Positions 3,254 through 40,165 of a stretch of 64,000 bases of DNA are shown here, in pieces (positions within the stretch are counted from its first letter, which is position 1; every line of letters starts with the position of its first letter). Origin of the DNA: Ensifer sp. IC4062 (GTDB lineage: Bacteria > Pseudomonadota > Alphaproteobacteria > Rhizobiales > Rhizobiaceae). A program made the translations under genes and the position numbers. Under the pieces are notes generated by a model, which was not told the origin of the DNA, did no database searches, and saw nothing but the letters and a program-made list of their open reading frames with translations. The stretch covers positions 1 to 64,000 of the forward strand of contig NZ_JADYVD010000034.1 of NCBI RefSeq assembly GCF_020193575.1, given 5' to 3'.

Positions 3254-3267
3254 TTGACGCAAATCAA
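3254..3267. promoter_or_regulatory. FixK/FNR box
   Basis: TTGAC-GCAA-ATCAA, a match to TTGAT-N4-ATCAA with one change. It is 66 bases upstream of the Met-rich protein gene, a spacing fitting activation at about -41. Confidence 0.75.
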
Positions 3268-3291
3268 GCTCGGCGTCGTTCACTGCCGTCG

Positions 3292-5661
3292 TCACGACGC
3301 TTCGGAGGCCGACCATTGCCAATTTCGAATCTCCGGCAGGTCTTCTCCATTCTCGCGGATGTAGGCGTCGTGTTCCGCGAGTTTGCCCTCGACGAAACGA
3401 GCGAAGCCCTCCCGCGACGCGGCGAGCGAAGGGACGCGCTCGACCACCGCCTTGGCGAGATGGAAACGGTCAAGTCCATTGAGAACGGCCATGTCGAAGG
3501 GCGTCGTCGTCGTACCTTCCTCCTGATAGCCGTGTACATGGAAGTTGGCATGGTTGGTGCGGCGGTAGGTCAGCCGGTGAACGAGAGAGGGATAGCCGTG
3601 ATAGGCAAAGATAACGGGCTTATCGTGGGTAAACATCTGATCGAACATCTCGTCCGCAATACCGTGGGGGTGCTGGCTGGGCGCTTGCAGCGCCATGATG
3701 TCCACGACATTGACGACCCGCAATCGCAGCGAAGGAAATGCTTCCCGCAGGATCATCACGGCCGCGGGTGCTTCCATGGTCGGGACATCGCCGGCGCAGG
3801 CGACTATGGCGTCGGGATTGCCGTCGTCATTTGAGGCCCAATGCCATACGCCGAGGCCGGTCCGGCAGTGCGCCACGGCCGCGTCCATGTCCATCCACTG
3901 CAGTTCAGGCTGTTTGCCGGCGACGATCACGTTGATGTAGTCGCGGCTCCGGAGGCAGTGGTCAACCACCGAGACAAGCGTATTGGCGTCGGGTGGCAGG
4001 TAGACACGAATGATGTCGGCCTTCTTGTTGGCCACATGATCGATGAAACCGGGGTCCTGATGTGAAAAGCCGTTATGGTCCTGACGCCAGACGTGGGAGG
4101 TCAGCAGGTAAGTGAGCGACGCAATTGGCCTACGCCAGGGGATGTCCTGACAGACCTTCAACCATTTTGCGTGCTGGTTGAACATGGAATCAACGATGTG
4201 GATGAAGGCCTCGTAGCACGAGAAGAAGCCGTGCCGACCTGTCAGCAGGTAACCCTCGAGCCAGCCTTGGCAGAGATGCTCGCTCAGCACTTCCATCACT
4301 CTGCCGTCAGGAGATAGCTGCGTGTCGCTATCCAATATCTCGCCGGTGAAGGCGCGAGTTGTTACCTCGAAAACCGGCGACAGGCGATTTGACTCCGTTT
4401 CGTCCGGCCCGAAGATCCGGAAGTTCCGCTCTTTCTCATTGAGTTTCATGACATCACGGAGATAAAGGCCGGCGATGCGTGTCGATTCTGCCGTCTTGGT
4501 TCCCGGAGTACCTATCTCCACCGCGTATGGGCGGAAATCCGGCAGGTTGAGGTCTTGCAGGAGAAGACCGCCATTGGCATGGGGATTTGCCCCCATTCGA
4601 CGTTGGCCCTTTGGTACGAGGTCTCGCAAGTCTGCGCGAAGTCGGCCGTTTTCGTCGAACAGCTCCCAAGGGCGGTAGCTCCTGAGCCAGTCTTCGAAAA
4701 GCCCGAGGTGCTCCGGCACTTCTGCCAGTTTGGAAAGCGGCACCTGATGCGAACGCCAGGAGCCTTCGGTCTGCTTGCCATCGATTTCTCGTGGGCCTGT
4801 CCAACCCTTCGGAGAGCGGAGTACGATCATGGGCCAGATGGGGCGACCGGAAAATCCCGCGCTGCGCGGCTGCCGCTGGATTTCGGCGATCCGCCCATGG
4901 GCCTCGTCGAGCGCCGCCGCCATAAGCTGGTGCATTTGCCGCGGATCCGATCCCTCGACGAACAGCGGCTCGTAGCCATAGCCGCGAAACAGCGCCTCCA
5001 ACTCTTCATGGCTGATGCGAGCAAGAACCGCGGGATTGGCGATCTTGTAGCCGTTGAGATGCAGGATCGGCAAAACCGCGCCGTCTCGCGCCGGGTTGAG
5101 GAACTTGTTGGAGTGCCAGCTCGTCGCGAGCGCCCCCGTCTCTGCCTCTCCATCACCGACGACGCAGGCGGCGATCAGGTCAGGATTGTCGAAGACGGCG
5201 CCGTAGGCATGCATGAGGCAGTAGCCAAGTTCGCCGCCTTCATTGATCGATCCCGGCACTTCTGCCGCCACGTGGCTCGGGACGCCCCCCGGATAGGAGA
5301 ACTGCGTAAAGAGTTTCTTGAGGCCCGCTTCATCCTGGCCGACCTCGGGATAAATCTCGGAATAGGTTCCTTCAAGATAGGTATTCGCAACGAGACCGGG
5401 ACCGCCGTGACCGGGCCCTGTGACATAGATCATGTTCAGGTCGTGTGCCTGGATCAGCCGGTTCAGATGGACATAGAGAAAATTCAATCCCGGCGTGGTG
5501 CCCCAGTGGCCGAGCAGGCGCGGCTTTACGTGGGCCAGCGTGAGCTTTTGTTTCAGGAGCGGATTGTCGCGAAGGTAGATTTGCCCCACGGAAAGGTAGT
5601 TGGCGGCTCGCCAGTAGGCGTCCATCCGCTCCAGAAGTTCGGGCGACAGCGTATCGGTCAT
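3292..5661 (-). CDS. xfp: xylulose-5-phosphate/fructose-6-phosphate phosphoketolase
   Basis: 789 residues, full length for the family (about 790-800). This thiamine-diphosphate enzyme cleaves xylulose 5-phosphate or fructose 6-phosphate with phosphate to acetyl phosphate plus glyceraldehyde 3-phosphate or erythrose 4-phosphate. Visible family text includes [12 protein letters not shown] near residue 50, TGPGHGGPG near 80, the PGGVPSH segment, and the diphosphate-binding GDGEAETG...[10 protein letters not shown] segment. The start ATG overlaps the TGA of the upstream ackA remnant (ATGA), showing that the pair was once translated together. It offers a fermentative route to acetyl phosphate that fits the low-oxygen context. 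With ackA broken, acetyl phosphate must go elsewhere, for example to Pta, another kinase or protein acetylation. I found no FixK box directly upstream. Confidence 0.96.
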
Positions 5662-6031
5662 CGGGAGGAATCCTTCCTGGTGAGGACATCTTTGACTGCT
5701 GCTGCAATGACTGCTTCCTCGCCGGCTGCAATCAGGCGAACCTCGACATCTGCACTGGCGGCAGAAATGACAGGCGAAGCCGATGCATTGAGCGCAGGAT
5801 CGAGTTCCACGCCAAGAAAGCCGAGGCCATCGCAGATGCGTTGCGGATCACCCGCGAGTGCTCTCCATGCCTCCGGTGAAAACCAGAACATCGAGGCCAC
5901 CCAGCACCGCCGCATAGGCGCCGATTTGTTTTTTGACACGTCCAAGCCCCGCAACGCGAACCTTCGCAGACGGCGAACTTCAGACTGGAGGAGCCGCCAT
6001 TCAGGATGAGGATGTGTCGACCGTTTCCCAT
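5658..6031 (-). pseudogene. ackA: acetate kinase remnant (large internal deletion plus frameshifts)
   Basis: From ATG at 6031 the frame reads MGNGRHILILNGGSSSLKFAV, the acetate kinase N-terminal phosphate-binding motif. After about 24 residues the text jumps to C-terminal AckA sequence: VKKQIGAYAAVLGGLDVLVF then TGG, next a GEHSRVIR-like segment, then [18 protein letters not shown] and [10 protein letters not shown]. These lie in different frames, so besides the loss of roughly 270 residues there are at least two single-base frameshifts (near 5870 and 5840). Intact AckA is about 400 residues. The terminal TGA overlaps the xfp ATG. The gene cannot make active kinase. Confidence 0.88.
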
Positions 6032-6227
6032 TATGTCGACCTCGTCTGGCCGATGGAGATATCGCAAGCACAACTGGCGGCGAACGAATATGATCCCCGG
6101 CAACATGCGGCGGATGAGGCCGGTCCGGTCCTCTTCAGTGAAATCGCGTAGTCTCGCCAGAAGAGGCTTCGGCTCGTAGCGGGGCCCATGGTGAAGGCCA
6201 CGCCCTAGCATCTCGGTTGGAAGGCGC
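6032..6227. other. short gap between ackA remnant and CBS-BON gene
   Basis: 196 bases. Minus-strand open frames here do not match a family I recognise. The stretch may be the end of a gene lost in the same deletion events that broke ackA. No FixK box is seen, so any promoter of the ackA-xfp pair may have been deleted or may lie upstream of the CBS-BON gene. Confidence 0.35.
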
Positions 6228-6884
6228 TCAGTTCGCAACAATGCGCAGCCTGTTCCTGACGCCGCCGGTACCGCTGATCGTCTCGGCGGCGACACGGGCC
6301 GCCTCGCGCAGTGTCTCGCTGTTGACCTCTCCCCATAAATTGACATTTCCGTTCTCGATCGTCACGTCTATCGACCCTCTGTCGAGGCCGAGATCGGAAC
6401 AAAGCCGCGCCAGTACGGCCCGCCGCACAGCCTCATCACCGACGGCGACAACATCAGGCACAGAGGCGGCAATCGCGCGAAGGATGTCGCTGCGCGTGAT
6501 GATGCCCACCATCTTTTCCGCTCGCGTGACCGGAATTCGCTTGATCCTTTTGGCAGCCATGAGTTCAGCTACGCGGCCAATGGGCATGTCTTCATCAACC
6601 GTCACAACAGGGTGCGTCATCACGTCGCCGACGCGCCAGCTATGCCCCTTGATGAACGCCTCCGGCTTCGCTCCGACGCCCGCGAATTCGCGCCACGAAG
6701 CCGACCCCAGCTCCGCACGCCGTAACAAGTCGCCCTCCGATAACATGCCAACGAGCCTACCGCGGTCGTCGAATACAGGCAGGCCGCTTATTCCGGCCGC
6801 AAGCATTATGCGCGCTGCATGGCTCACGCTGTGGTCGGGGCTGATCGACAGCACCTTCTTGTTCATGATGTCTCTGGCCAGCAT
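6228..6884 (-). CDS. CBS-pair plus BON domain protein
   Basis: 218 residues. Two CBS motifs come first: MLARDIMNKKVLSISPDHSV with GLPVFDD-GRLVGMLSEGDLL (residues 1-55) and VGDVMTHPVVTVDEDMPIGR with RIPV...MVGIITRSDILRA (about 84-140). A BON domain follows (about 150-218, VTIENGNVNLWGEV). CBS pairs bind adenine nucleotides and BON domains bind lipid or polymers, so this is probably a soluble energy or stress sensor. The FixK box at 6939-6952 lies 54 bases upstream, at the right spacing for activation of this gene. It is divergent from the CopA-like operon. Confidence 0.87.
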   Translation of the reverse strand: MLARDIMNKKVLSISPDHSVSHAARIMLAAGISGLPVFDDRGRLVGMLSEGDLLRRAELGSASWREFAGVGAKPEAFIKGHSWRVGDVMTHPVVTVDEDMPIGRVAELMAAKRIKRIPVTRAEKMVGIITRSDILRAIAASVPDVVAVGDEAVRRAVLARLCSDLGLDRGSIDVTIENGNVNLWGEVNSETLREAARVAAETISGTGGVRNRLRIVAN

Positions 6885-6938
6885 CCTACCGCCCTCCGAT
6901 TAGTGGCCGCAGCATACGCCGCTTCGTGGAGCAGGAGA

Positions 6939-6952
6939 TTGATGTTGGTCAA
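6939..6952. promoter_or_regulatory. FixK/FNR box in divergent promoter
   Basis: TTGAT-GTTG-GTCAA. It is 54 bases upstream of the CBS-BON start and 33 bases upstream of the chosen CopA-like start. The first spacing fits activation best, but the site may serve both. Confidence 0.75.
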
Positions 6953-6985: not shown

Positions 6986-9187
6986 ATGGGAATTGATCCG
7001 AACCATCGTCATAGTCGGACAAGTGAGCACCCGCCGACCGCTCAAGCGGAGGGATCGCGAGTCGCGCTGACGGAAGGCGCGATCTACACCTGCCCGATGC
7101 ACCCGCAGGTACGGCAGATCGGCCCCGGCAACTGCCCGATCTGCGGCATGGCCCTCGAACCCGAAGTCGTGACCGCCGAAACGGGTCCCAGCCCGGAACT
7201 CATCGACATGCGGCGCAGGTTCTGGATCGGACTGGCGCTCACCATTCCCGTCCTAATCCTCGAAATGGGAGGCCACCTTTTCGATCTGCATGTGATGGTC
7301 AGCCCTCAGACTTCGAACTGGCTGCAACTCGTCTTCGCAACGCCTGTCGTGCTTTGGGGAGGTGCTTCCTTTTTCGAGCGGGCCTGGCGGTCCCTCGTCA
7401 CCCGACACCTGAACATGTTCACCCTGATCGCCATGGGCACGGGCGTCGCGTGGGTCTACAGCGTCGTCGCCACCGTCTTCCCCGGTCTGTTTCCGGCGAC
7501 GTTCCGTTCCGAGGAAGGTTCGGTTGCGATCTATTTCGAGGCGGCCGCCGTCATCACCGTCCTGGTACTGCTCGGACAGGTGCTGGAGCTGCAGGCGCGT
7601 GAGCAGACGGGCGGCGCGATCCGCGCACTGCTCGACCTTGCGCCGAAAACCGCCCGCCGCATCCGCAGCGATGGCTCCGACGAGGACGTGCCGCTCGAAG
7701 CAGTCGTTGTCGGTGACAGGCTACGCGTCCGTCCGGGTGAAAAGGTCCCCGTCGACGGGACGCTCGTCGAGGGCCGCAGTTCGGTCGATGAATCGATGAT
7801 CACCGGAGAGTCGATGCCGGTCACCAAGGAGGTCGGCGCGAAGCTGATCGGCGGTACGATGAACAAGACGGGCGGTTTCGTCATGGAAGCGGGCAAGGTC
7901 GGCCGCGACACCATGCTGTCGCAGATCGTCCGCATGGTCGCCGAGGCCCAACGGTCTCGCGCTCCCATCCAGCGTCTGGCCGACGAAGTCTCTGGCTGGT
8001 TCGTTCCCGCTGTTATTCTGATCGCTATCGTCGCGTTCGCCACGTGGATGGCTGTTGGGCCGGAACCTCGCTTCACCCATGGACTTGTCGCCGCAGTGGC
8101 GGTGCTGATCATCGCCTGCCCCTGTGCGCTCGGCCTCGCCACTCCGATGTCGATCATGGTCGGCGTCGGCAAGGGTGCAAGCGTCGGTGTGCTGATCAAG
8201 AACGCCGAGGCGCTCGAACGCTTCGAAAAGGTCGATACGCTCGTCGTCGACAAGACGGGGACCCTGACCGAGGGCAGACCGAAGGTTACATCAGTAGTGG
8301 CCGCAAGCGGGATATCCGAGGACGACCTGCTGCGACTCGCAGCAACGCTGGAGCGGCCGAGCGAGCATCCTCTTGCGGCGGCAATCGTCGAGGCCGCCAA
8401 TGAGCGCCGAGTCGCACTCGGAAAGGCGGAAGACTTCGACAGCCCGGTTGGCAAGGGAGTGACGGGCAACGTCGAAGGCCGCAGGCTGATTATCGGCAGC
8501 CACCGGATCATGTCCGAGGAAGGGGTGGACGTCTCCGCCCTCTCGCAAAAGGCGGAAGAGCTGCGCGGCGAAGGAGCGACCGTCATCTTCGCGGCCATCG
8601 ACGGTCGTCTCGGCGGGTTGTTCGCGATCTCCGACCCGATCAAGGAGACGACACCCGCCGCCGTCGAGGCGCTGATCAAGGACGGCGTGCGCGTGGTGAT
8701 GCTCACCGGGGACAACAAGACCACCGCCAATGCCGTCGCTCGCAAGCTTGGCATCAAGGAGGTCGAGGCGGAAATCCTGCCCGAGCATAAAAGCGAGATC
8801 GTCGCTCGTCTGCGCAACGAAGGCAGGATCGTCGCCATGGCGGGCGACGGCGTTAACGACGCCCCCGCGCTTGCCGCCGCCGACGTCGGCATTGCGATGG
8901 GAACCGGGACGGATGTGGCCATCGAAAGTGCGGGCGTAACGCTGCTGAAGGGCGACCTCCAGGGTATCGTGCGGGCGCGGCAGCTCAGCCACGCGACAAT
9001 GCGGAACATCCGCCAGAACCTGTTCTTCGCCTTCATCTACAACGCCGCTGGCGTCCCGGTTGCGGCTGGCGTGCTCTACCCCGCCCTCGGACTTCTACTG
9101 TCGCCGATCATCGCAGCCGCCGCCATGGCGCTGTCGTCGGTCAACGTCATCGGCAATTCGCTCAGGTTGAGGAGTGCTCGGATATGA
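6986..9187 (+). CDS. Cu(I)-exporting P1B-type ATPase (CopA/ActP type)
   Basis: 733 residues. The N-terminus carries a YHS-like heavy-metal-binding domain, [20 protein letters not shown] (about 31-52), instead of the usual GMTCxxC domain. The core has the transport motif [13 protein letters not shown] in TM6, phosphorylation motif [15 protein letters not shown] in the nucleotide domain and [10 protein letters not shown]. The CPC motif points to copper or silver export across the inner membrane. The tail overlaps the next gene by four bases (ATGA). Microaerobic copper ATPases often support cbb3-type oxidase assembly in rhizobia, but no fixG/H/I/S genes are here, so detoxification or cuproprotein supply are both possible. 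Confidence 0.93.
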
Positions 9188-9890: not shown

Positions 9891-10322
9891 ATCGACGGCG
9901 CGCATGAGCCACAACATGCCTGATATAACCGCGGCCCCACTGTAGCTGGACCTGTCGGCAGTCAACAGATCGTCGACACAGATTTGGCGATGCCCCCACC
10001 ATCAGGTTTTAAGGAATTAGGTCAACACAGCCCCGGCAGATCACCGATCCATATAGAACCCAGGCCGCTTTCGAGTGCTGTGCTGACTGGGAAAGAGTGA
10101 GGAGGGCGGGAAATCTCGGGGCTTCCGGCTTCTACAGATCACCCCGGTCTTTGACGCCGATCAATGAGGCTGCCGCAGCACAGCGGTTTAATGATCTCAT
10201 CTGGGGTGGCGACCGGCGGAGAAGCGCCGGGAGAAGTCGGCCAGACTGGCTTGCGGCCGCGCCCATGAGCAACCAGCGGTGAGACGAGCCTGGAACCACC
10301 GCTTTGAAGGAGGAAACCAGCC
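9891..10322. other. intergenic region upstream of hsp20
   Basis: 432 bases. Apart from the FixK box at 10151-10164 I see no gene. The last 40 bases hold a GGAGGAA ribosome binding site for hsp20. The remaining sequence has no repeat or IS end I can recognise. Confidence 0.5.
10151..10164. promoter_or_regulatory. FixK/FNR box
   Basis: TTGAC-GCCG-ATCAA, 158 bases upstream of the hsp20 start. This implies a leader of about 115 bases if used as a standard activator site. Confidence 0.72.
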
Positions 10323-10850
10323 ATGGCTGAACCTGCAACCAAACTGCCCATCAAGTCGGAAGAAAAAGGCGTCGAGCGTCGTGCGGAGTCGTGGCCCCCC
10401 TTCGAGAGCCTCAGATCCGAAATCGACCGGCTGTTCGACGACTTCGCTCCAAACCTGTGGCATCGCCCGTTGGCTTCCGCTCTCATGCGTCGGGTGCCGC
10501 GGCTGTCCGACCTGGACGTGGCGCCGGCCGTTGATCTGGCGGAGACAGAAAAGAGCTACGAGATCACCTGTGAACTGCCGGGGATGGAAGAAAAGGACAT
10601 AGAGGTAGCCATCTCCAACGGGATCCTGACCATCCGAGGCGAGAAACAGGAGGAGAAAGAGGAGAAGAAGAAGGAATATGTCCACTCTGAGCGCCGCTAT
10701 GGCTCGTTCCAGCGGACGTTCCGGATGCCAGATGGAGTCGATGCAGAAAAGATTGTTGCAAATTTCTCGAAGGGCGTTCTGTCGGTAACCCTGCCGAAGA
10801 CCCAGGAAGCGCAGCAGAACGAGCGCAAGATCCAGATCAAGTCCGCTTGA
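10323..10850 (+). CDS. Hsp20/alpha-crystallin small heat-shock protein
   Basis: 175 residues. The alpha-crystallin domain spans about 65-165 (VDLAETEKSYEITCELPGME, ISNGILTIRGEK, then the conserved FSKGVLSVTLPK). A charged stretch, KQEEKEEKKKEY, is inserted in the loop. The N-terminal 60 residues hold an amphipathic helix. The protein is an ATP-independent holdase that keeps unfolded proteins soluble in the cytoplasm. It has a strong ribosome binding site (GGAGGAA) and a FixK box upstream, so induction by low oxygen rather than heat alone is likely. No ROSE-type thermometer is evident. Confidence 0.93.
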   Translation: MAEPATKLPIKSEEKGVERRAESWPPFESLRSEIDRLFDDFAPNLWHRPLASALMRRVPRLSDLDVAPAVDLAETEKSYEITCELPGMEEKDIEVAISNGILTIRGEKQEEKEEKKKEYVHSERRYGSFQRTFRMPDGVDAEKIVANFSKGVLSVTLPKTQEAQQNERKIQIKSA

Positions 10851-17033: not shown

Positions 17034-17047
17034 TTGACGCGCATCAA
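17034..17047. promoter_or_regulatory. FixK/FNR box
   Basis: TTGAC-GCGC-ATCAA, 55 bases upstream of the DegP-like gene. Confidence 0.75.
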
Positions 17048-19829: not shown

Positions 19830-19860
19830 CGCAAATCCAAGTGGTCGCCCCGGCTAGTCA

Positions 19861-20973: not shown

Positions 20974-20987
20974 TTGATGAGCATCAA
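20974..20987. promoter_or_regulatory. FixK/FNR box
   Basis: TTGAT-GAGC-ATCAA, a perfect consensus match, 90 bases upstream of the ornithine carbamoyltransferase-like gene. Confidence 0.8.
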
Positions 20988-21131
20988 TGACGGCCCAGCT
21001 CGTTTCCCGGAAAATGCCTCTCAATGCGACGATCGCAGGTTTGCGATAGTTGACGCGTGGCCGGCGGCGGGGCCTGTCCTTTAGTGGAGGCGACGGTTTT
21101 TCGCTGAGATGCATTTCTGATGGAGAGCAAC

Positions 21132-23263: not shown

Positions 23264-23298
23264 AGCCCGCCGAGCCGAATGGAGAGAGGAACCGCTAT

Positions 23299-24929: not shown

Positions 24930-24943
24930 TTGAGCGCAATCAA
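24930..24943. promoter_or_regulatory. FixK/FNR box
   Basis: TTGAG-CGCA-ATCAA, 55 bases upstream of the Pat-like gene start at 24999. One position differs from consensus. Confidence 0.65.
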
Positions 24944-27698: not shown

Positions 27699-27708
27699 CC
27701 GGCATCAA
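27695..27708. promoter_or_regulatory. FixK/FNR box
   Basis: TTGAC-CGGC-ATCAA, overlapping the end of the Pat-like gene and 65 bases upstream of the first universal stress protein gene. Confidence 0.75.
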
Positions 27709-28643: not shown

Positions 28644-28731
28644 TCAGTTCGGGTCTGCGATCGCGCCGCACCCGGCCAAATCAAGCACAAGGAAACCCAA
28701 CACTCGCGCCCCAAGAGCTTCTTGACAGCGA

Positions 28732-28745
28732 TCAATGTAGCAGGC
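28732..28745. promoter_or_regulatory. FixK/FNR box
   Basis: TTGAC-AGCG-ATCAA, 56 bases upstream of the second usp gene. Confidence 0.75.
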
Positions 28746-28801: not shown

Positions 28802-29635
28802 ATGACCTACAAAACAATTCTTTTGGTGATCGGCGCCAATGAGCACGAAAATGATCTAACAGCGGCAGCGGATCTCTGCGCGGCCGCCGATGCCCATTTA
28901 TCAGTTCTTCTGGTCAAGCTCGCCGCACCACCACCGATCGGAGATTATGCGGCCATGTCGGTCGCCTGGCTCGACGAACGGGCCGAGGACATGAGGCAAC
29001 TGGATGAGGCAGTGGAGAGAGCTCGAGCCACGCTGAAGGGCCTCGGGATCTCATTCGAGGCAAATGGCATCTATTGCGAGACCGCATGGGCCGACAACGA
29101 TGTGGGCAATCGCGCACGCTATGCCGACATTACATTGATCGGGGCGAGCATGAAGCCGGATTCTCCGTTGCGAGCGCGAGCCATTGACGGAGCGCTCTTC
29201 TATTCGGCGCGACCGGTTCTGCTCGCAACCAATCGCCAATCCGTTACACTGCGTCCAAGAAAGATTCTCCTCGCATGGAACTCGACCATGGAATCCGCGA
29301 GAGCGGCCCGCGAAGCATTGGAACTGATGGAGAGCGCCGAGGAGGTGAATGTCGTGGTGGTCGATCCAAGCGCAGCTTCGGCCAAAAACGGCGAAGAACC
29401 GGGTGCTGATGTTGCCACCTACCTCGCTCGCCATGGCATCGAAGTCACCGTCGATCGCCTCCCAAGCGCCGGACGCCGTGTCGAGGAGGTTCTCAACCAG
29501 CATGCCATTGATACCTCTGCCGATCTGATCGTGATGGGCGCATACGGGCATACACGTCTTCGCGAAAGGATATTCGGCGGCGTTACCAAGGCGATGATTG
29601 AAGCACCTATGGTACCGGTGCTGATGGTGCGCTGA
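28802..29635 (+). CDS. universal stress protein, two UspA domains (second of tandem pair)
   Basis: 277 residues with a strong ribosome binding site (GGAGGAAG). Same two-domain layout as its neighbour, with MTYKTILLVIGANEHENDLT at the start and GAYGHTRLRERIFGGVT near the end. Length differences come from short insertions such as an extra KPDSP segment near residue 118. The pair is likely to respond to low oxygen through the adjacent box. Confidence 0.92.
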   Translation: MTYKTILLVIGANEHENDLTAAADLCAAADAHLSVLLVKLAAPPPIGDYAAMSVAWLDERAEDMRQLDEAVERARATLKGLGISFEANGIYCETAWADNDVGNRARYADITLIGASMKPDSPLRARAIDGALFYSARPVLLATNRQSVTLRPRKILLAWNSTMESARAAREALELMESAEEVNVVVVDPSAASAKNGEEPGADVATYLARHGIEVTVDRLPSAGRRVEEVLNQHAIDTSADLIVMGAYGHTRLRERIFGGVTKAMIEAPMVPVLMVR

Positions 29636-29690: not shown

Positions 29691-29695
29691 TGCCG

Positions 29696-30151
29696 TCATG
29701 CTTCACCTTCGTGTGCAGCTCGGCCGGTCATGTCTTCGATATCGACACAGAAAAAGACATGCGGCGAAGAGCCTGCGACCGCTTGTGGTGCGGGCTTCAG
29801 CCCGCCCGGCTCCCACCAATTTGGTCGCGCCTCGAGAAGCGACCAGGCATGCACGCACTCTCTCTGCCATCGCCCTTCCGACGGCAGCTCCTGATAGCGG
29901 CCGAATACAAGGACGCTTTTCCACTGCCGTTCGCCTGAAAACTCATCGACTTGAAGGCATACATGCGGGTTGGCGCGCATCCAGTCGATCTTCTGGCCGG
30001 GCATAGAAAAGCAGTAAATGCAGTTGCCCGTAAAAGCATAAGTGATTGGCACGACATACGGCCTGCCTTCGTTACAGCAAGCAAGACGAGCCAGATGACC
30101 GGCCTGAATGACGCTGCTGCATTCGTGACGGGACATTTCCTTGATGAACAT
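29696..30151 (-). CDS. PNPOx-like flavin-binding protein
   Basis: 151 residues. The start MFIKEMSRHECSSVIQAGHLARLACCNEGRPYVVPITYAF and the later MPGQKIDWMRANPHVCLQVDEF match the split-barrel pyridoxamine 5'-phosphate oxidase-like family (FMN or F420 binding), common as stress-related or nitroreductase-like proteins. The C-terminal part (WWEPGG near 112, then a short tail) is typical of this subgroup. The substrate is unknown. It faces the BON gene across a shared FixK box 65 bases from both starts. Confidence 0.82.
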   Translation of the reverse strand: MFIKEMSRHECSSVIQAGHLARLACCNEGRPYVVPITYAFTGNCIYCFSMPGQKIDWMRANPHVCLQVDEFSGERQWKSVLVFGRYQELPSEGRWQRECVHAWSLLEARPNWWEPGGLKPAPQAVAGSSPHVFFCVDIEDMTGRAAHEGEA

Positions 30152-30216: not shown

Positions 30217-30230
30217 TTGATGTCCCTCAA
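30217..30230. promoter_or_regulatory. FixK/FNR box in divergent promoter
   Basis: TTGAT-GTCC-CTCAA, 65 bases upstream of the PNPOx-like gene and 66 bases upstream of the BON gene. The symmetric spacing suggests control of both. Confidence 0.65.
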
Positions 30231-30296: not shown

Positions 30297-30971
30297 ATGA
30301 GCGACATTCGCCTGCGCCAGGACATCCTGGATGAGCTCGAATATGAACCCAGCATAGACGCCGCGAACATCGGAGTAACGGTCGAGGACGGCGTTGTCAC
30401 TTTAACGGGCCATGTTCACAGCTTTGCGGAAAAACACACTGCGGAACGGGTTGCGCAACGGGTGAAGGGCGTGCGCGCAATCGCCGAGGAAATCGAAGTG
30501 CGGCTACCGGAGAACAAGAAGACCGCCGATGACGAAATCGCCAGCCGCGTGGTAAAAATTCTCACCTGGGGAGCCGCAATTGCCGAGCTCAAGGACATCC
30601 AGGTCAAGGTTGAAAACGGTTACGTGACCCTGGAGGGAACGGTCGATTTCTATTTCCAGCGTAATGCGGCCGAGAGCTTGGTGCGTCGCTTGACGGGCAT
30701 CACGGGTGTCGACAACCGACTGAAGATTCGTCCCATGATGGATGTGCTCGACATCAGGCATGGCATCAGAGAGGCGCTGAAACGCAACGCTGAGATAGAG
30801 GCCGAAAACATCGACGTAGAAGTATCCGGCAGTCATGTCACCTTGCGTGGGAAGGTTCAAAGCCGGCGCGAGAGAGCCGTGGCCGAGCGAGCGGCCTGGT
30901 CGGCTCGAGGCGTCACGGCTGTCGAGGATCACTTGAAAATCGAAGAACCCCGAGGCCGGCTCAATACCTGA
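30297..30971 (+). CDS. triple BON domain protein
   Basis: 224 residues from the ATG at 30297 (GAGGAAGGAG upstream). Three BON repeats (about 3-70, 78-145 and 150-217), each with a core such as VTVEDGVVTLTGHV, VKVENGYVTLEGTV and VEVSGSHVTLRGKV. There is no signal peptide, unlike OsmY, so it may stay in the cytoplasm or be leaderless. BON domains bind membranes or polymers. The P-type ATPase gene starts 14 bases after its stop, forming an operon. Confidence 0.88.
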   Translation: MSDIRLRQDILDELEYEPSIDAANIGVTVEDGVVTLTGHVHSFAEKHTAERVAQRVKGVRAIAEEIEVRLPENKKTADDEIASRVVKILTWGAAIAELKDIQVKVENGYVTLEGTVDFYFQRNAAESLVRRLTGITGVDNRLKIRPMMDVLDIRHGIREALKRNAEIEAENIDVEVSGSHVTLRGKVQSRRERAVAERAAWSARGVTAVEDHLKIEEPRGRLNT

Positions 30972-30985: not shown

Positions 30986-33664
30986 ATGACCTTCGTGGCA
31001 CTCCCAGACCTTGCCTCGCGCGGGGGCTCACTGGTCGGCGGTACGGGACTTAGCCATGAGGAGGCTCGTCTCCGGCTTACGCGCTTTGGTTCGAACAGCC
31101 TTCCGGAACCGCAAGCCTCCTCGCTGGCGATTACTTTCCTGCGCCAGTTCCGCAGCCCGCTGATCTACATTCTGCTGGCCGCGGCACTGGTATCTCTCCT
31201 ATTGAGCGATCTGAAAGATGCGCTATTCATCAGCATCGTTCTTATCGCGAACGGCATCATCGGGGCTTTGCAGGAGCACACGGCCGGCAAAGCCGCATTG
31301 GCGTTGCGCAGATTGGAACAACCGAAGGCGAGCGTCATCCGCGACGGACGCTTGCAGGAAATCGACGCTCGACTGTTGGTGCCGGGCGACGTGGTCGCGC
31401 TCGAAGCGGGCGGACGCGTGCCGGCCGATATCCGGCTCCTCTCAGCGACCGATCTCGTTTGCGACGAATCCCTCCTGACGGGAGAATCAGCACCGGTTCA
31501 CAAGCCCAGCTCGATTGTGGAGGCTGCCCCCGGAAAGGACGGGCGCTCCATGGCCTTTGCGGGCACGCTCGTCACGCGCGGCCGCGGACAGGGTGTGGTC
31601 GCGGCGACTGGAGCAGCAACCGAGATCGGCAAGATTGCCACCGAGATCGGCAAGGCGTCCGTCACCAAGCCCCCCTTGATGATCAGGCTGGAACGCTTCT
31701 CCAAATTCATCGCCTGGATCGTCGCGGTTGCGATCGCTCTTCTCGTCGTTGTGGGGATTGCCCGCGCGATGACGCCGAGCGAGCTCTTCATGATGTCCGT
31801 TGGCCTCGCGGTGAGCGCGATCCCTGAAGGCCTGCCGATTGCGATCTCGGTCGCGCTGGCAATCAGCATGCGGCGTATGGCGAAAGCACACGTCATCGTG
31901 CGCCGAATGCCGGCGGTGGAAGCTCTCGGCTCCTGCACGATGATTGCCACCGACAAGACCGGCACATTGACGCTCAACGAACTGACCGTGACGGATATCC
32001 GCTTGCCGGACGGCACCGAGATTGTCTGCGATACGGGCGCTGACCTGGACGCCTGCACGATTCGGGGCGATGGAACCCCTCCGGCGGAGGCACGGGAACG
32101 TGCCCTTGCCTTGTTCAAGGCCGCGTCGCTGCCCAACGAAGGATCGCTGGTCAAGGAAGCGCATGGCTGGACCGCCGTCGGCGATACGGTCGACATTGCA
32201 TTGCTCGCGGCCGCCCACAAGGCGGGCTTGCCGCGGGAGGCTATCGAGAACGACTATCCGCTTGTCGCCCGAATCCCCTACGAGCCGGACCTCAAATACG
32301 CGGCCTCGTTTCACCGCCACGGCGACAGCGTTCGCATCTTCGTCAAGGGCGCCGCGGAAACCCTGATCGACATGGCCGACCGCATGGACGTGGCCGGTCG
32401 CGCCGAGCCGATCGATCGGGATATCCTCCTCCATCAGAAGGAAGAGATGGCCGCGCGTGGGCTACGAGTCCTTGCCTTTGCGGAGGGCGAGACGGCAATC
32501 GAAACAGATGGCGGCTTTGGGCGGCATCTCCTGGTCGACCTCGTCTTTCTGGGGCTTGCAGGAATGCAGGATCCGGTACGCCCTGAGGTGCCGCAAGCCA
32601 TCAGCGATTGCCACTCCGCAGGCGTGGACGTGGCAATGGTCACCGGCGACGATCCCAGGACCGCGGCGGCAATTGCCTCCCATGCCGGGCTGATCTTCGC
32701 CGAAGTTCAGGTGGTCATCGGCGAAGACGTGCGCAGGGCCGAGGAAAATGGGCAGGAAAGTCTCGACGCGTTGACCCGCCATGGCCGCATCTATGCGCGC
32801 GTTGCCCCGTCACAAAAGCTGGCGATCGTCCTGTCGCTCGCCCGCAACGGCCACTTCGTCGCCGTCACAGGGGACGGCGTCAATGACGCGCCGGCGCTGA
32901 AGCACGCGCATATCGGCGTGGCGATGGGGCGCAAGGGCACGGAGGTGGCGAAGGAGAGCGCCGACATCGTCATCACCGATGACAACTTCGCGTCGATCGT
33001 CAGCGGCATCCGCGAAGGCCGGGTCGCCTACGCGAATATCCGCAAGGTCATCTTCATGCTGATGTCGACGGGGGCCGCAGAATTGCTGCTGTTCCTGCTG
33101 GCAATCCCACTCGGCTTGCCGATGCCTCTTCTTCCCGTGCAGTTGCTTTGGCTCAACCTCGTGACCAATGGCATTCAGGACATTGCGCTCGCCGGCGAAA
33201 GTCCAGAAGGCGACGAACTCAGCCGCGCGCCGCGCAGGCCGTCCGAACCGATCTTCGACCGGCTGATGATGCGGCGGATCGTTCAATCTACCCTGGTTAT
33301 GGGAGCCGGCGGGCTCGCGATGTTCTATGTTCTGCTCGAGCAGGGCTATGGCGAAAGCGAAGCCCGCAATCTGCTGCTGCTGTTGTTCGTGCTTTTCGAG
33401 AACTTCCAGACGCTGGCGAGCCGCTCCGAGCGCAGATCCGTCTTCCAGCTCGGCTTTCTCGCCAATCCGTTGCTGCTACTCTCCATCGCAGCGGCGCAAG
33501 GCCTTCATATCGCTGCCATGTACATTCCGATCCTGAGGGAGACGCTGCAAGTTTCCCCGATATCCTTTTCCGAATGGGCGCTCCTGCTTGTTACCGCGTC
33601 TTCTGCCCTCCTGGTCGTCGAAATCGACAAATGGCGGGTCCGCAGCGAGCCGGTCGCCCTTTGA
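30986..33664 (+). CDS. P2-type cation-transporting ATPase (Ca2+/PMA-like)
   Basis: 892 residues. Cation-ATPase N-domain (SHEEARLRLTRFGSNSLPEP), P-type core TGES, TM4 motif PEGLP followed by RRMAKAHVIVRRMPAVEALG, phosphorylation site [30 protein letters not shown] and a six-helix C-terminus. PEGLP is typical of Ca2+-type P2 pumps, but bacterial relatives may transport other cations. It is cotranscribed with the BON gene and presumably under the same FixK box. No CPC-type motif, so it is not a heavy-metal pump. Confidence 0.92.
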   Translation: MTFVALPDLASRGGSLVGGTGLSHEEARLRLTRFGSNSLPEPQASSLAITFLRQFRSPLIYILLAAALVSLLLSDLKDALFISIVLIANGIIGALQEHTAGKAALALRRLEQPKASVIRDGRLQEIDARLLVPGDVVALEAGGRVPADIRLLSATDLVCDESLLTGESAPVHKPSSIVEAAPGKDGRSMAFAGTLVTRGRGQGVVAATGAATEIGKIATEIGKASVTKPPLMIRLERFSKFIAWIVAVAIALLVVVGIARAMTPSELFMMSVGLAVSAIPEGLPIAISVALAISMRRMAKAHVIVRRMPAVEALGSCTMIATDKTGTLTLNELTVTDIRLPDGTEIVCDTGADLDACTIRGDGTPPAEARERALALFKAASLPNEGSLVKEAHGWTAVGDTVDIALLAAAHKAGLPREAIENDYPLVARIPYEPDLKYAASFHRHGDSVRIFVKGAAETLIDMADRMDVAGRAEPIDRDILLHQKEEMAARGLRVLAFAEGETAIETDGGFGRHLLVDLVFLGLAGMQDPVRPEVPQAISDCHSAGVDVAMVTGDDPRTAAAIASHAGLIFAEVQVVIGEDVRRAEENGQESLDALTRHGRIYARVAPSQKLAIVLSLARNGHFVAVTGDGVNDAPALKHAHIGVAMGRKGTEVAKESADIVITDDNFASIVSGIREGRVAYANIRKVIFMLMSTGAAELLLFLLAIPLGLPMPLLPVQLLWLNLVTNGIQDIALAGESPEGDELSRAPRRPSEPIFDRLMMRRIVQSTLVMGAGGLAMFYVLLEQGYGESEARNLLLLLFVLFENFQTLASRSERRSVFQLGFLANPLLLLSIAAAQGLHIAAMYIPILRETLQVSPISFSEWALLLVTASSALLVVEIDKWRVRSEPVAL

Positions 33665-33678: not shown

Positions 33679-35208
33679 TCACCGTCGGGGATCACGGCTA
33701 TGCTTCAGGATATCCGCTACGACATCGTTCGCGAAGCGATCGACATCCATTCGGTGCCAATCGATACCTCCGAGATCATAAGTTAGTTGCCGCGAGAGGA
33801 CATTCAGATCCGCATCGGAAGGTCCTACCGTCCTTTCGGCAACACGGCCGCGAAGAACCGACGGGCTCGCGTCCAGCCAGAAGGCCGCATATGGCACATG
33901 CGCCTCGCGCGCAGCCGCCTCGATGCGCTGACGGTTGATACACTTGTCGAAGACGGCTGCCGCGACTACGGATCCTCCCGCACGCAATATCGAAAATGTG
34001 CGGCGGGCCATCTCGTCGTAGACCTTCTGCGAAATCTCCGAACGATAGGCTTCCGCCGGCAGCCGCGTTTCGGCTGCCACGCCGTACATCTCCTTGCGGA
34101 CGCGATCGCTTTCAATGATCCTCGCGCCCGGAGGCGAACCGAACTGTGCAGCCAGGATTTCCGACACAGTCGTTTTGCCGGAACCACTCAATCCGCCAAT
34201 CACCATCAAGCGGGGTGGCCTCGTTTCAAGCAGGGATAGCGCCAGGTCGAAATAGGATCGAGCCTCGGCGGCGAGCGCCTCCGACCGCTGGCCACTCTCT
34301 TCGATCTGGGTGGCTGTGACGTGCGCCCTCACGGCAGCGCGGATCGCCATGAAATAAGGCAGTAGAACAAAGCCATCCTCGTCGCCCGCTTCGTCCAGAT
34401 ACCGGTTCATGACCAGGTTGGCAAACTGCGGAAAGCCGCGATGCCAAAGATCCATGAGCAGGAACGCGAGATCATAGAGCGTATCGATGGTTGCAATCTG
34501 GTCGTTGAACTCGATGCAGTCGAACAGCCGCGGTTCGCCTTGCAACAGGCAGATATTGCGCAGATGCAGGTCACCGTGGCATCGCCTGACCCTGCCGGCG
34601 ACTTCACGCGCATCGAGCAGCGGTGCATAGGCCGCCAGGTTGCGCTCGAAAGCGCGTTCGAACTCGGCAACCTCGACGGGATCGAAGAGCCTGCTCGTGG
34701 CAAAACCGGCCGCATTGACACGCAAGACAGCGGCGATGTTCTCGGAACCGCGTCCCTGATGAACGATCTGGGCGACCCCGTGAAAGCGGGCGATCATGTG
34801 TGCTGTCCGCGCCATCAATTCGGCATCGAGCTTGCCTCCAACGGCCATGCGATCGAACAACGCCTCCTGGTCGAACCGGACCATTTCGATGACCGCTTCG
34901 ACAAGCTCCTCGCCCTGATCATAAGCAAGGCGGCCATCGCGGCCGCGCATGATCCGTCGCACGCCGACGTACAGACCTGGCGCAGTGACGCTGTTCAGCG
35001 CCACCTCCTTTTCACAAGCGGCGAGCCTCAGTTCCGCAGTCGAGAAATCCACATAGGGCAGCTTCACCGCCCGCTTGATCTTGTAAGCGCGATCACCGGA
35101 AAGGAAGATCCAAGAGATGTGTGTCTCGATGATCTCGACCTCATCCGCGCCACGCGCGTGAGGCGCGCTTAGAAAGGCGACGACCTCCGCCTGATCCTGG
35201 GCAATCAT
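33679..35208 (-). CDS. APH-like kinase fused to P-loop (gluconate-kinase-like) domain
   Basis: 509 residues from the ATG at 35208, which has GGAAAGG upstream. The N-terminal part (about 20-330) is an aminoglycoside phosphotransferase-like fold with HGDLHLRNICLLQGEPRLFDCIEFND (catalytic loop plus metal Asp, shown in two parts in families of this type). The C-terminal part has Walker A GGLSGSGKTT near 345 and resembles small sugar kinases. Fusions of this kind are conserved in proteobacteria, with unknown substrate. A FixK box lies 110 bases upstream. Confidence 0.85.
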   Translation of the reverse strand: MIAQDQAEVVAFLSAPHARGADEVEIIETHISWIFLSGDRAYKIKRAVKLPYVDFSTAELRLAACEKEVALNSVTAPGLYVGVRRIMRGRDGRLAYDQGEELVEAVIEMVRFDQEALFDRMAVGGKLDAELMARTAHMIARFHGVAQIVHQGRGSENIAAVLRVNAAGFATSRLFDPVEVAEFERAFERNLAAYAPLLDAREVAGRVRRCHGDLHLRNICLLQGEPRLFDCIEFNDQIATIDTLYDLAFLLMDLWHRGFPQFANLVMNRYLDEAGDEDGFVLLPYFMAIRAAVRAHVTATQIEESGQRSEALAAEARSYFDLALSLLETRPPRLMVIGGLSGSGKTTVSEILAAQFGSPPGARIIESDRVRKEMYGVAAETRLPAEAYRSEISQKVYDEMARRTFSILRAGGSVVAAAVFDKCINRQRIEAAAREAHVPYAAFWLDASPSVLRGRVAERTVGPSDADLNVLSRQLTYDLGGIDWHRMDVDRFANDVVADILKHSRDPRR

Positions 35209-35506
35209 AAAATGCCTTTCCGTCCGGCTGGGACTATCTCGTCGATCCAAATCACGAAAGGCAAACTCTCGTGCGCAACAGAACGAAATGATGATCAACG
35301 CTACAAGCATGCGCCTCATTGATCAGTATCAAGGAACCATGAAGCGATGCCGGTAAGCAAAACCCCACCAGACCGATATTCACGCTCACCAATGAGCTGC
35401 GACGGTGTTGTGCGACGTCGCGAATAGCGCCGCGGCGCGTACCGGCCGCATCGAAGCTGGAAACACCCACTCACGGCAACGGCAGCGGTGAAAACTAGGC
35501 ATTCGT
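35209..35506. other. intergenic region
   Basis: 298 bases between the kinase-like gene and the end of the DUF4010 gene. It contains the FixK box at 35319-35332. Nothing else is recognised. Confidence 0.5.
35319..35332. promoter_or_regulatory. FixK/FNR box
   Basis: TTGAT-CAGT-ATCAA, a perfect consensus match, 110 bases upstream of the APH/kinase gene. Confidence 0.82.
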
Positions 35507-37581: not shown

Positions 37582-37781
37582 TTGTGCAATCCAAGTGAAA
37601 CCCCGCCAAGGAAAGCAAACGCGACCCCGTGTTGCAAGCTCGCGATCGTCGCAGCACGGCGCCCGCCATTCACATGGCAATGCACGTTTTTGCCTCGGCC
37701 GTTTTCCATAAGGCCTTTGCGCGGGATCAAGGCAACGATCCTGTTATCCAGTATTCTTCACGAGATCTGTCGGAGAGCACC

Positions 37782-40106
37782 TTGACCAAGAGCCGTGTCG
37801 TCGAGCCGTTTTGGCAAGGAGGAGAGCTGGGCAAGCGCCTTCTCCTGGCCCTCATCGCTGTAGCCTTGCTCGCCGGCACAGCCGCCTGGCTGGCGGACCG
37901 GCCTGACCTCAGCGCCGCGTCCTGGGCTGCCGGAACCGCGATCATCCTGGCGAGCCTTCTTATCGAGGTCGCGATCAGTCTCGGAAGGAAGGAATTCGGG
38001 CTGGACCTCATCGCTGCGCTCGCCATGGGCGGTGCCCTTCTTCTCGGCGAATACCTGACCGGCAGCATCGTCGCACTGATGTATACGGGCGGACAGGCGC
38101 TCGAGGATTTCGCTCAAAGGCGCGCACGCCGGGAACTGACGGCGCTGCTCAGTCGGGTACCGCGCACCGCCGCTCGTTACGCGGATGGGCAGTTGCAGGA
38201 GGTTTCCATCGAAGAACTGAATCCTGGCAACCGCATCCTGATACGCCGTGGCGAGGTGGTGCCCGTCGACGGAAACGTGCTGGATGGAACCGCCGTGCTG
38301 GACGAGTCGGCCCTAACGGGCGAAGCCCTGCCGGTCCGCCGCCGCTCCGGCGAGCCCGTGACGAGCGGCACGACGAACGCCGGCGATGCGTTCGACATGC
38401 TCGCCGCAAGTTCCGCGAGCGACAGCACCTATGCGGCGATCGCCAGGCTGGTGGAGGCGGCGAAGGCCGCGAAGGCGCCGATGGTCCGTCTTGCCGACCG
38501 CTACGCGCTGGTGTTCCTCGCGGTCACGCTGCTCCTCGCCGGCGGCGCCTGGGCCATGAGCGGGGAACCGGTCCGCGCGCTCGCCGTGCTGGTCATTGCG
38601 ACACCGTGCCCGCTCATTCTCGCGGTCCCGGTGGCGATCATCTCCGGCGTCTCCCGCTGCGCCGGCAAGGGGGTGCTCGTAAAGGGCGGAGGCGCACTCG
38701 AGATGCTCGCGCGGATGAAGACGGTGATCCTCGACAAGACCGGGACGATCACCGACGGCCGGGCCCGTCTTATCGAGGTCAAGTCCCGCGTGGATCTCGA
38801 TCCTCTGGAGGTGCTGCGTCTCGCGGCATCGCTAGATCAGGGCTCACACCATGTGATCGCCCGCGCGCTGGTCGCAGCCACCCGCGAGCGGGAACTGAAA
38901 CTTGTCGCACCGTCGGGATCACTTGAAGTGGCAGGTTCCGGCATGACCGGCAACATAGATGGTCACGAAATCGCAGTGGGCGGTTGGGATTTCGTCAACG
39001 CCAGGATTGAGGAGACCGCCTTCTCGCGAGAGATCCGGGAGTGGATCCGGAGGGATGGCACCGTCTCGGTTCTCGCCGCGAAGGACGGAATTCTGGCGGG
39101 CGCGTTTCTGCTGGCAGACGAGGTCAGGCCGGAGGCCGGCAGCGTGCTCAGGCGATTGCGCGATGCCGGCGTCGATCGGATCGTGCTTGCGACCGGGGAT
39201 CGCACCGAGCTGGCGGAGAGCCTCCAGGCCTTCCTAGGGTTGGACAGTGTTGCCGCCGAATTGAAGCCCGAGGACAAAACCCGAATTGTCGAAGCGGAAA
39301 GATCGGCAGGACCGGTCATGATGGTCGGCGATGGCGTCAACGACGCACCGGCGCTCGCAGCCGCGGACGTTGGGGTAGCCATGGGCGCGCGCGGGGCTGC
39401 CGCCTCCTCCGAAGCGGCGGACGTCGTGATCATGGTGGACAGGCTCGATCGGCTCGTCAGCGCCATTCGCATAGCGCACCGGTCACGCGCAATTGCGCTC
39501 CAGAGCGTCTATATGGGGGTGGGCCTGTCTGTCGCTGGCATGATCGCGGCCGCCTTCGGCTATCTGACGCCGGTTCAGGGCGCACTGCTGCAGGAAGCAA
39601 TCGACGTCGTCGCCATCTTGAACGCGCTGCGCGCTCTTGGAAACCCTAACCGCGTTTGGCGGAAAACAACACGTTTGGCGCACGCGGAGCTCCTGAAGCT
39701 CGAAGCCGAGCATGGTGCCCTGATGGACGTCGTGGACGAGATACGCCATACGAGCGCTCGCATCCAGCAGATCCCGGAAGAGGAAGTGCGCAATCAGCTT
39801 GCACATTTGGACGCCTTGCTGCGACAACGCCTTCTTCCGCACGAACGGCAGGATGACGAGGAACTCTATCCTAGGCTGCGCAGGCAGGCGGGCACGCCGG
39901 ATGCTCTTGCCGGCATGAGCAGAACTCACATGGAGATCCAGCGTCAGGTCCACAGCTTCACTTCGCTTCGACAAGCCCTTAGCGAACATGGACCGAGCCG
40001 GGCACAGCGCTACGAGATCCAACGCCTGCTGCACGGTCTCGAAGCTATCACTCGCCTCCACTTTGCCCAGGAGCTGGAAATCTATCGATCGCTTGAGGAC
40101 GAGTAA
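37782..40106 (+). CDS. nia: P1B-5-type metal ATPase with C-terminal hemerythrin domain (Nia-like)
   Basis: 774 residues if started at TTG 37782 (GGAG upstream). ATG 37674 gives 36 more residues that do not look like family sequence. There is no N-terminal metal domain. TM helices precede the core. The transport motif is TPCPL rather than CPC, with DKTGTITDG and [10 protein letters not shown]. The usual HP of the nucleotide domain is HH (GSHHVIA). The C-terminal about 140 residues form a hemerythrin-like domain with His/Glu motifs (EHGALMDVV, LLPHERQDDEELYP, RTHMEIQ, LHFAQELEIY). This TPCP plus hemerythrin layout defines P1B-5, known from Sinorhizobium meliloti Nia, a nickel/iron exporter. A weak FixK-like site, TTGCG-CGGG-ATCAA, is at 37717. 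Confidence 0.88.
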   Translation: MTKSRVVEPFWQGGELGKRLLLALIAVALLAGTAAWLADRPDLSAASWAAGTAIILASLLIEVAISLGRKEFGLDLIAALAMGGALLLGEYLTGSIVALMYTGGQALEDFAQRRARRELTALLSRVPRTAARYADGQLQEVSIEELNPGNRILIRRGEVVPVDGNVLDGTAVLDESALTGEALPVRRRSGEPVTSGTTNAGDAFDMLAASSASDSTYAAIARLVEAAKAAKAPMVRLADRYALVFLAVTLLLAGGAWAMSGEPVRALAVLVIATPCPLILAVPVAIISGVSRCAGKGVLVKGGGALEMLARMKTVILDKTGTITDGRARLIEVKSRVDLDPLEVLRLAASLDQGSHHVIARALVAATRERELKLVAPSGSLEVAGSGMTGNIDGHEIAVGGWDFVNARIEETAFSREIREWIRRDGTVSVLAAKDGILAGAFLLADEVRPEAGSVLRRLRDAGVDRIVLATGDRTELAESLQAFLGLDSVAAELKPEDKTRIVEAERSAGPVMMVGDGVNDAPALAAADVGVAMGARGAAASSEAADVVIMVDRLDRLVSAIRIAHRSRAIALQSVYMGVGLSVAGMIAAAFGYLTPVQGALLQEAIDVVAILNALRALGNPNRVWRKTTRLAHAELLKLEAEHGALMDVVDEIRHTSARIQQIPEEEVRNQLAHLDALLRQRLLPHERQDDEELYPRLRRQAGTPDALAGMSRTHMEIQRQVHSFTSLRQALSEHGPSRAQRYEIQRLLHGLEAITRLHFAQELEIYRSLEDE

Positions 40107-40151
40107 TCCAAACGAATAGACGACCCGATGCCGAGCATCTCATCGACCCAT

Positions 40152-40165
40152 TTGAGGCAGATCAA
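40152..40165. promoter_or_regulatory. FixK/FNR box
   Basis: TTGAG-GCAG-ATCAA, 51 bases upstream of the alpha/beta hydrolase start. One position differs from consensus. Confidence 0.65.

Follow-up and report, generated by a model that had tools for sequence, protein, structure and literature searches.

Which regulator, and which signal, would control a run of genes whose promoters share binding sites of the FixK/FNR type? The question is raised by a 64,000-bp stretch of Ensifer sp. IC4062 DNA (contig NZ_JADYVD010000034.1, here C103, positions 1-64000; hereafter the window), which belongs to a genome of 7,124,523 bases in 175 contigs. The sites follow the pattern TTGA-N6-TCAA, the "anaerobox" (full consensus TTGATN4ATCAA), and belong to an island of 40,157 bp, whose ends were chosen with its genes already known. 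An earlier note had described the island as a FixK/FNR-box regulon around its own FixK, a description supported by the density of the boxes, their conservation in relatives, the identity of the box columns and the spacing to a -10-like hexamer. With a probability of roughly 0.7, we read the island as a self-contained low-oxygen stress regulon, in which about 13 boxes would answer to a local hFixL-FxkR-FixK cascade.

In the proposed mechanism, a fall in oxygen would cause the hybrid kinase hFixL to signal to the response regulator FxkR. FxkR would then bind its operator, the K-box, and switch on the fixK-hfixL operon, and FixK would bind about 13 boxes centred near -41.5, recruiting RNA polymerase as a class II activator. 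The predicted outputs are proteostasis factors (Hsp20 small heat-shock chaperone, Spy-like envelope chaperone and DegP protease), enzymes (a beta-CASP nuclease-like enzyme, ornithine carbamoyltransferase and an acyl-CoA ligase-acetyltransferase fusion), two universal stress proteins (USPs), BON/CBS proteins, and metal or cation ATPases. What was computed directly comprises the K-box, the domains of the encoded proteins, and the boxes together with their density, their conservation and their spacing to the -10-like hexamer. On sequence grounds we hold with high confidence that about 13 boxes function as Crp/FNR-type activator sites, and there are good reasons to assign their control to the local cascade; induction of the island by low oxygen would follow from homology.

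Density, conservation and promoter geometry of the boxes

A pattern search of the window finds 14 boxes at 3254-42326 and none at 42.4-64 kb. The twelve boxes reported in the earlier note are all real, and eleven of their coordinates are right; the box placed at 28732 actually starts at 28722, and the boxes at 41930 and 42313 are additional. Three (18832, 20974 and 35319) match the full consensus exactly, as had been stated, while the other nine of the twelve differ at a single position, 5 or 10, rather than at "one or two". Shuffling the window 100 times with dinucleotide composition preserved gives a mean of 0.69 and a maximum of 3 boxes. The whole genome (7.12 Mb) contains 127 matches, against 33 for a reversed control pattern, and its density outside the island predicts 0.64 boxes within it. 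The 14 observed are an approximately 22-fold enrichment (Poisson P = 1e-14), which disposes of the concern, raised with the original claim, that such sites might be no denser here than elsewhere in the genome. For the stricter pattern TTGAYN4RTCAA, nine of the genome's 53 sites fall in the island (reversed control, 6), as do three of the 16 exact consensus sites. Among the sites listed (50 of the 127 and 50 of the 53), the next densest groups are four identical copies in 6 kb on contig C133 and three sites in 6.7 kb on contig C156.

The boxes lie upstream of gene starts, as had been claimed, with centres 40-165 bp away; 13 of the 14 fall at 40-120 bp, a range that qualifies 5.7% of the island, and the exception is the Hsp20 box at 165 bp. 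Because the boxes at 6939, 20974 and 30217 sit between divergent genes, the 14 boxes face 17 starts. The box at 27695 does overlap the stop codon of the gene before it. An ATG within the longest open reading frame (ORF) was taken as the start for ornithine carbamoyltransferase, the APH-AAA fusion, the acyl-CoA ligase-GNAT fusion, USP1, BON3, the alpha/beta hydrolase and the cytochrome c gene. The APH-AAA start comes from orthologue alignment and the cytochrome c start is a methionine picked by eye; the other five agree with the RefSeq starts of the orthologues in S. meliloti LMB1. With longest-ORF starts, the boxes at 20974 and 24930 would lie inside an ORF and those at 27695 and 35319 would touch one.

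A -10-like hexamer starts 28.5-29.5 bp from the box centre, at the peak of a profile pooled over 62 promoters from nine islands. Within this range, which was set after the pooled profile had been seen, the 17 window promoters reach a mean best hexamer score of 3.34, against 1.97 (standard deviation 0.18) for random placement, and none of 5000 placements attains it. Class II activation, with the box at -41.5, predicts a distance of 29.5 bp, and the spacing matches this FNR/FixK geometry. The cytochrome c promoter (box 42313) has no -10-like hexamer at 28.5-29.5 bp. The second position past TCAA is a G in 13 of the 17 oriented promoters, in agreement with the published TTGANCNNGATCAANG (PMC4999443).

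Conservation was followed in eight relatives: S. meliloti LMB1 (plasmid pB), S. meliloti 1021 (pSymA), S. medicae T10, Ensifer IC3342, Sinorhizobium 8-89, S. fredii GR64, S. sojae and Ensifer PDNC004. Six of these are plasmid records, drawn from a plasmid collection. A gene was accepted as an orthologue if it reached 55% identity, aligned at the N terminus and came with 250 bp of sequence upstream, and the remaining candidates were excluded; for ornithine carbamoyltransferase, BON3 and the cytochrome c gene, the counts were run with starts one codon (3 bp) off. A box occurs within 250 bp upstream in 77 of 85 target rows, where three rows are common to the USP1 and USP2 tallies (the single USP gene of a relative, entered under two names) and a divergent box is counted once per start. 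This corresponds to 74 of 82 distinct promoters, or to 60 of 67 when the near-identical LMB1 island is left out. By contrast, none of 51 non-target genes of the eight relatives has a box, although the 51 do not amount to as many independent promoters, since many of the genes sit within operons.

Pairwise alignments, built regardless of box presence, show identity in 638 of 680 cells for the eight box bases, 136 of 170 for positions 5 and 10, 240 of 340 for the inner spacer and 3223 of 5100 for the 30-bp flanks. In S. sojae and Ensifer PDNC004, box bases are 88-89% identical against 46-48% in the flanks. The boxes remain with their genes although gene order varies among the islands, which cleanly illustrates how binding sites can follow their genes when a locus is rearranged.

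Local regulators and the predicted oxygen input

The gene at 22514 encodes a FixK-type regulator, as had been reported: it has Pfam Crp/FNR domains, its best PDB match is FixK2 (4i2o, E 3.6e-26), and the two proteins share an ETVSR recognition helix. The protein is 49.8% and 44.2% identical to the two FixKs of pRL9, and in NCBIfam it scores 144 of 300 with the FixK model and 141 of 300 with the FnrL model, both far under the cut-off. It is possibly a FixKf, a group separated from FixK by a tree in PMC4999443. It has a single cysteine, residue 17, and therefore no FNR-type cluster, so the amount of FixK would be expected to carry the signal. An FNR or FnrN identity was ruled out, as the protein is without the N-terminal cysteine cluster. 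Autoregulation of fixK through an anaerobox was likewise rejected: neither in the window nor in the eight relatives do the 300 bp upstream of fixK or of fxkR contain a box. Within the genus, a box does occur near some fixK copies that are more distant. Elsewhere in the Ensifer sp. IC4062 genome, two near-identical canonical fixK genes are located on contigs C156 and C169 (loci L095, L093 and L132), with FixL and FixJ beside the C156 copy.

Divergent to fixK lies a gene for an OmpR-family response regulator, 68.8% identical over 234 amino acids to the R. johnstonii 3841 pRL9 response regulator at the fxkR9 position. Between the two genes is the predicted FxkR operator for fixK, the K-box GTTACACTTTGTTACA, an exact match of the published FxkR operator (PMC7888657, PMC4999443) and the sole exact one in the genome. 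Its centre is located 99.5 bp from the fixK start, compared with 93.5 bp at fixK9a of pRL9. The location of the K-box is what counts, because matches of the reversed control occur genus-wide at about 0.3 per genome (9 in 33).

FixK of this type (E <= 1e-60) is present in 15 of the 33 genus genomes, and the exact K-box is found in 14 of these 15, against none of the 18 that lack this FixK. The genus holds 23 such fixK copies, 15 with an exact K-box and 22 with one of two mismatches or fewer; the exception has an internal stop. Two copies, at 3.4 and 4.1 Mb of a contig (genomes G030 and G016), imply that chromosome-sized replicons carry fixK too. The mean number of TTGAYN4RTCAA sites per genome is 57.8 with this FixK (15 genomes) and 36.2 without it (18), with 4.3 and 3.9 for the reversed control, in a comparison that ignores phylogeny and in which the island contributes its own sites.

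The likely oxygen sensor is the FixL-type heme-PAS hybrid kinase encoded immediately downstream of fixK, which would act through the divergent OmpR-type regulator and the K-box, an element absent from the earlier note. Its PAS domain matches that of S. meliloti FixL (1d06, E 1.5e-46), with the heme-ligand histidine aligned. We take this aligned residue of the 1d06 PAS to be the heme ligand. The kinase is 64.5% identical to hFixL9 of pRL9, and it would be expected to bind heme and to pass phosphoryl groups to FxkR. Ensifer PDNC004 retains fxkR, the K-box and fixK in its island (19123-20741 of that locus), with no hfixL in the stretch covered; the sensor may therefore act from elsewhere there. 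A scan of genome contigs for FixL-like loci kept the best 80 of 591, mostly distant hybrid kinases; among these 80, 59 are without a box, and loci L005-L011 and L014 were taken further.

The pSymA counterpart and competing readings

In S. meliloti Rm1021, a FixK-like motif reaches its greatest genomic density in a 120-kb region of pSymA (SMa1077-SMa1297), which includes four Crp/Fnr genes, SMa1141 among them; a local Crp/Fnr regulator has been suggested (PMC5596199). The Crp/Fnr proteins of this region are without an oxygen-sensing cysteine cluster, and an input is known for FixK1 and NnrR (PMC5596199). The orthologous island on pSymA has 14 boxes, spread over 591035-641615, and a K-box at 621141, the only one in the 143 kb of pSymA around the region. 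Over these 143 kb, Crp/FNR genes are located near 621245, 662441, 672248 and 682159, with 16 boxes at 586-646 kb and 7 at 646-726 kb. Judging by gene order, the orthologue of the island FixK is probably SMa1141.

The alternative that survives best holds that the boxes do serve as low-oxygen sites, but chiefly for the canonical FixLJ-FixK system or for another ETVSR-bearing Crp/FNR protein, with the local system redundant or minor. We consider this unlikely, although several observations that weigh against our reading belong to it. The genome has canonical FixL, FixJ and FixK together on contig C156. Of its 14 PF13545 matches above the cut-off, at least three besides the island FixK carry ETVSR (at least four proteins with the local one), in a close reading of all 14 loci except L101-L103, L105 and L106; the local FixK is therefore not necessarily the sole reader of the boxes. 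The island DegP is presumably the counterpart of DegP4 of S. meliloti. The degP4 gene is reported as an experimentally confirmed FixK target (PMC3164228), which fits crosstalk from a canonical FixJ-FixK pathway, and FixK- and FnrN-type sites are indistinguishable by sequence (PMC4999443, PMC2908626). Six pSymA boxes are located at 662-682 kb, near fixK1/fixLJ, so clustering is not special to this FixK. On the other side stand the co-occurrence of the K-box with this FixK across the genus, the larger number of boxes in genomes that hold it, and the position of the boxes, which surround this fixK whereas C156 has only three among the listed sites (50 of the 53). Proximity and co-occurrence thus favour the local FixK, which would bind the boxes, as their reader; some crosstalk among FixK-like proteins is likely.

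A second alternative accepts the regulon as real and assigns its main cue to carbon/nitrogen status (the polyhydroxybutyrate, PHB, cycle and perhaps cyclic nucleotides) rather than to oxygen. Its basis is the orthologous 120-kb pSymA region, which changes with PHB-cycle mutation under nitrogen limitation and for which a speculative cyclic-nucleotide model has been proposed (PMC5596199). This response means that oxygen may not be the only signal. As the main cue it is very improbable, given the FixL-type heme PAS of the sensor next to fixK and the role of the K-box as the known output of hFixL-FxkR. The last alternative, a functionless cluster arisen by chance or composition, is ruled out by the shuffles, the genome density, the placement, the conservation and the -10 spacing, and describes at best the box at 42313.

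Other points also count against a local, oxygen-driven regulon. In the closest relative island, that of S. meliloti LMB1, the K-box has one mismatch. Eight of the 82 distinct promoters are without a box (beta-CASP 2, acyl-CoA ligase-GNAT fusion 2, USP2 1, APH-AAA 1, cytochrome c 2); in both beta-CASP cases (S. fredii GR64 and Ensifer PDNC004) the gene is situated behind another boxed gene. The relatives compared are not phylogenetically independent. The box at 42313, with a box at neither of its two orthologues and no -10-like hexamer, is unsupported as a working site. No enrichment is seen for the mirror base of the downstream G, a C at the second position before TTGA (8 of 17, P 0.11). Finally, the predicted FixK targets and the genes expressed under microaerophilic conditions are said to coincide only in part (PMC3164228).

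Boxed genes, neighbouring features and related systems

The features of the island are listed in Table 1.

Table 1. Regulatory elements, boxes and genes of the island, with the share of orthologues that have a box upstream.
Feature	Position (strand)	Associated gene or context	Gene position (strand)	Orthologues boxed	Remarks
FxkR-like OmpR-family response regulator	21623-22369 (-)				Pfam
K-box	22407-22422	between OmpR-type regulator and fixK			predicted FxkR operator
FixK-type (possibly FixKf) Crp/FNR regulator	22514-23263 (+)				Pfam
hFixL	23260-24867 (+)				Pfam: FixL-type heme PAS, HisKA, HATPase, C-terminal receiver
Box 3254	3254-3267 (-)	LTXXQ/Spy-CpxP	2556-3188 (-)	4/4	
Phosphoketolase	3292-5661	after CBS-BON	6228-6884 (-)		same strand as CBS-BON
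Acetate-kinase-like remnant	5661-6228 (-)	between CBS-BON and phosphoketolase			decayed
Box 6939	6939-6952	CBS-BON; CopA-type ATPase	6228-6884 (-); 6986-9187 (+)	4/4; 4/4	divergent
Box 10151	10151-10164 (+)	Hsp20	10323-10850	5/5	
Box 17034	17034-17047 (-)	DegP/HtrA-type protease	15650-16978 (-)	6/6	
Box 18832	18832-18845 (-)	beta-CASP metallo-hydrolase	17173-18768 (-)	6/8	exact consensus
Box 20974	20974-20987	ornithine carbamoyltransferase; 148-aa GNAT-fold protein	19861-20883 (-); 21120-21566 (+)	6/6; 6/6	exact consensus; divergent
Box 24930	24930-24943 (+)	acyl-CoA ligase (NDP-forming)-GNAT fusion	24999-27698	4/6	
Box 27695	27695-27708 (+)	universal stress protein (USP1)	27774-28595	7/7	
Box 28722	28722-28735 (+)	universal stress protein (USP2)	28802-29635	6/7	
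Box 30217	30217-30230	pyridoxamine-oxidase-like; triple-BON (BON3)	29696-30151 (-); 30297-30971 (+)	6/6; 7/7	divergent
Ca-type P-ATPase	30986-33664	after triple-BON gene			
Box 35319	35319-35332 (-)	APH-AAA fusion	33679-35208 (-)	2/3	exact consensus
Heavy-metal P-type ATPase	37674-40106 (+)				C-terminal hemerythrin domain
Box 40152	40152-40165 (+)	alpha/beta hydrolase, then flavodoxin-type	40217-41260; 41312-41893	2/2	
Box 41930	41930-41943 (+)	96-aa ORF	42026-42316	2/2	-10-like hexamer present
Box 42313	42313-42326 (+)	cytochrome c	42389-42712	0/2	doubtful

Several products have unusual features of their own. The 148-aa protein has no Pfam or NCBIfam match and is kept beside FxkR in Sinorhizobium and Bosea loci. 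Its AlphaFold2 model, built from four sequences, reaches a best predicted local distance difference test score (pLDDT) of 75, with three of five models at 50-54, and matches GNAT acetyltransferases in the PDB (best E 4.8e-05). By its architecture, the acyl-CoA ligase-GNAT fusion is presumably a Pat-like protein acetyltransferase. The beta-CASP enzyme has an RNA-specificity domain, and its lowest-E NCBIfam match is the type VII Cas14 MBL-CASP model, with 323.7 bits against a cut-off of 800. The acetate-kinase-like remnant was recognized by eye, in pieces that lie in different frames. No box occurs within 300 bp upstream of the heavy-metal ATPase with the hemerythrin domain, which we take to resemble Nia/SMa1163 of S. 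meliloti.

The cascade itself, FixK targets of this kind and the pSymA peak of FixK-like motif density are already known. The local arrangement resembles the cascade of R. etli and R. leguminosarum 3841, in which a hybrid FixL, the OmpR-type FxkR and a K-box (GTTACAN4GTTACA) upstream of fixK-hfixL lead to anaerobox outputs (PMC7888657, PMC4999443). In R. leguminosarum, activating anaeroboxes are located at -32 to -34 and K-boxes at -62, in the numbering of PMC7888657. A divergent fxkR beside fixK-hfixL is also the layout of chromosomal cluster 3 in R. leguminosarum, itself reported to have neither K-box nor anaerobox. The targets discussed for hFixL-FxkR-FixK in the text consulted are fixNOQP, fixGHIS, fnrN, nifA, cco and respiratory or nitrogen genes; the boxed neighbours of the island, by contrast, are stress, proteostasis and transport genes.

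The predicted FixK targets in Table 1 of PMC2908626 include Hsp20, phosphoketolase, a CBS protein, ABC/HlyD transporter parts, a kinase and cytochrome c. That alphaproteobacterial regulon is a cross-genome list which also contains FixL and FixJ, rather than one cluster built around a regulator of its own. A rhizobial Hsp20 with an anaerobox is induced approximately 50-fold under microaerobic conditions by FnrN (PMC11784457), and universal stress, CBS and phosphoketolase proteins are induced by microoxia in B. diazoefficiens (PMC6515984). The lxa locus of Burkholderia cenocepacia is a low-oxygen set rich in universal stress proteins, with a small heat-shock protein and a BON protein, and has been paralleled with the DosR regulon of M. 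tuberculosis (PMC6127331). The lxa and DosR sets have other regulators, and their likeness to the island is one of gene content only. DosR belongs to the NarL type and works with heme kinases of its own.

The hFixL-FxkR-FixKf cascade has been stated for R. etli, R. leguminosarum and S. meliloti, in the latter beside FixLJ, and a figure legend of the same paper defines FxkR sites from the aligned fixKf upstream regions of three genomes (PMC4999443). The K-box of the S. meliloti orthologue was therefore very probably already predicted there. The text consulted of that paper predicts the S. meliloti cascade without a tie to the pSymA region. Conversely, PMC5596199 connects the region with PHB and nitrogen, discusses it alongside fix and denitrification genes, and is not among the open-access full-text matches for hFixL or FxkR. 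In the open-access literature searched, a link between hFixL-FxkR or the K-box and this stress-gene island was not found in print.

More broadly, the sensor, relay, FixK and about 13 promoters, which are found together in part of the genus, might form a portable low-oxygen survival module, often carried on Sinorhizobium plasmids and parallel to the FixLJ-FixK system of the host, a proposal we make tentatively, at slightly less than even odds. If true, rhizobia would have in this module their own equivalent of the lxa and DosR gene sets, and the acyl-CoA ligase-GNAT fusion, together with the 148-aa GNAT-fold orphan, would hint at protein acetylation as an output. In S. meliloti, the K-box would then connect oxygen with the unstudied Crp/Fnr protein SMa1141, whose output would be the stress island. 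Joining the cascade of PMC4999443 to the region of PMC5596199 thus gives a testable answer, in which SMa1141 would be the oxygen-controlled switch of a stress-survival island, and the proposed stress output would be separate from the respiration and nitrogen-fixation output of FixLJ-FixK.

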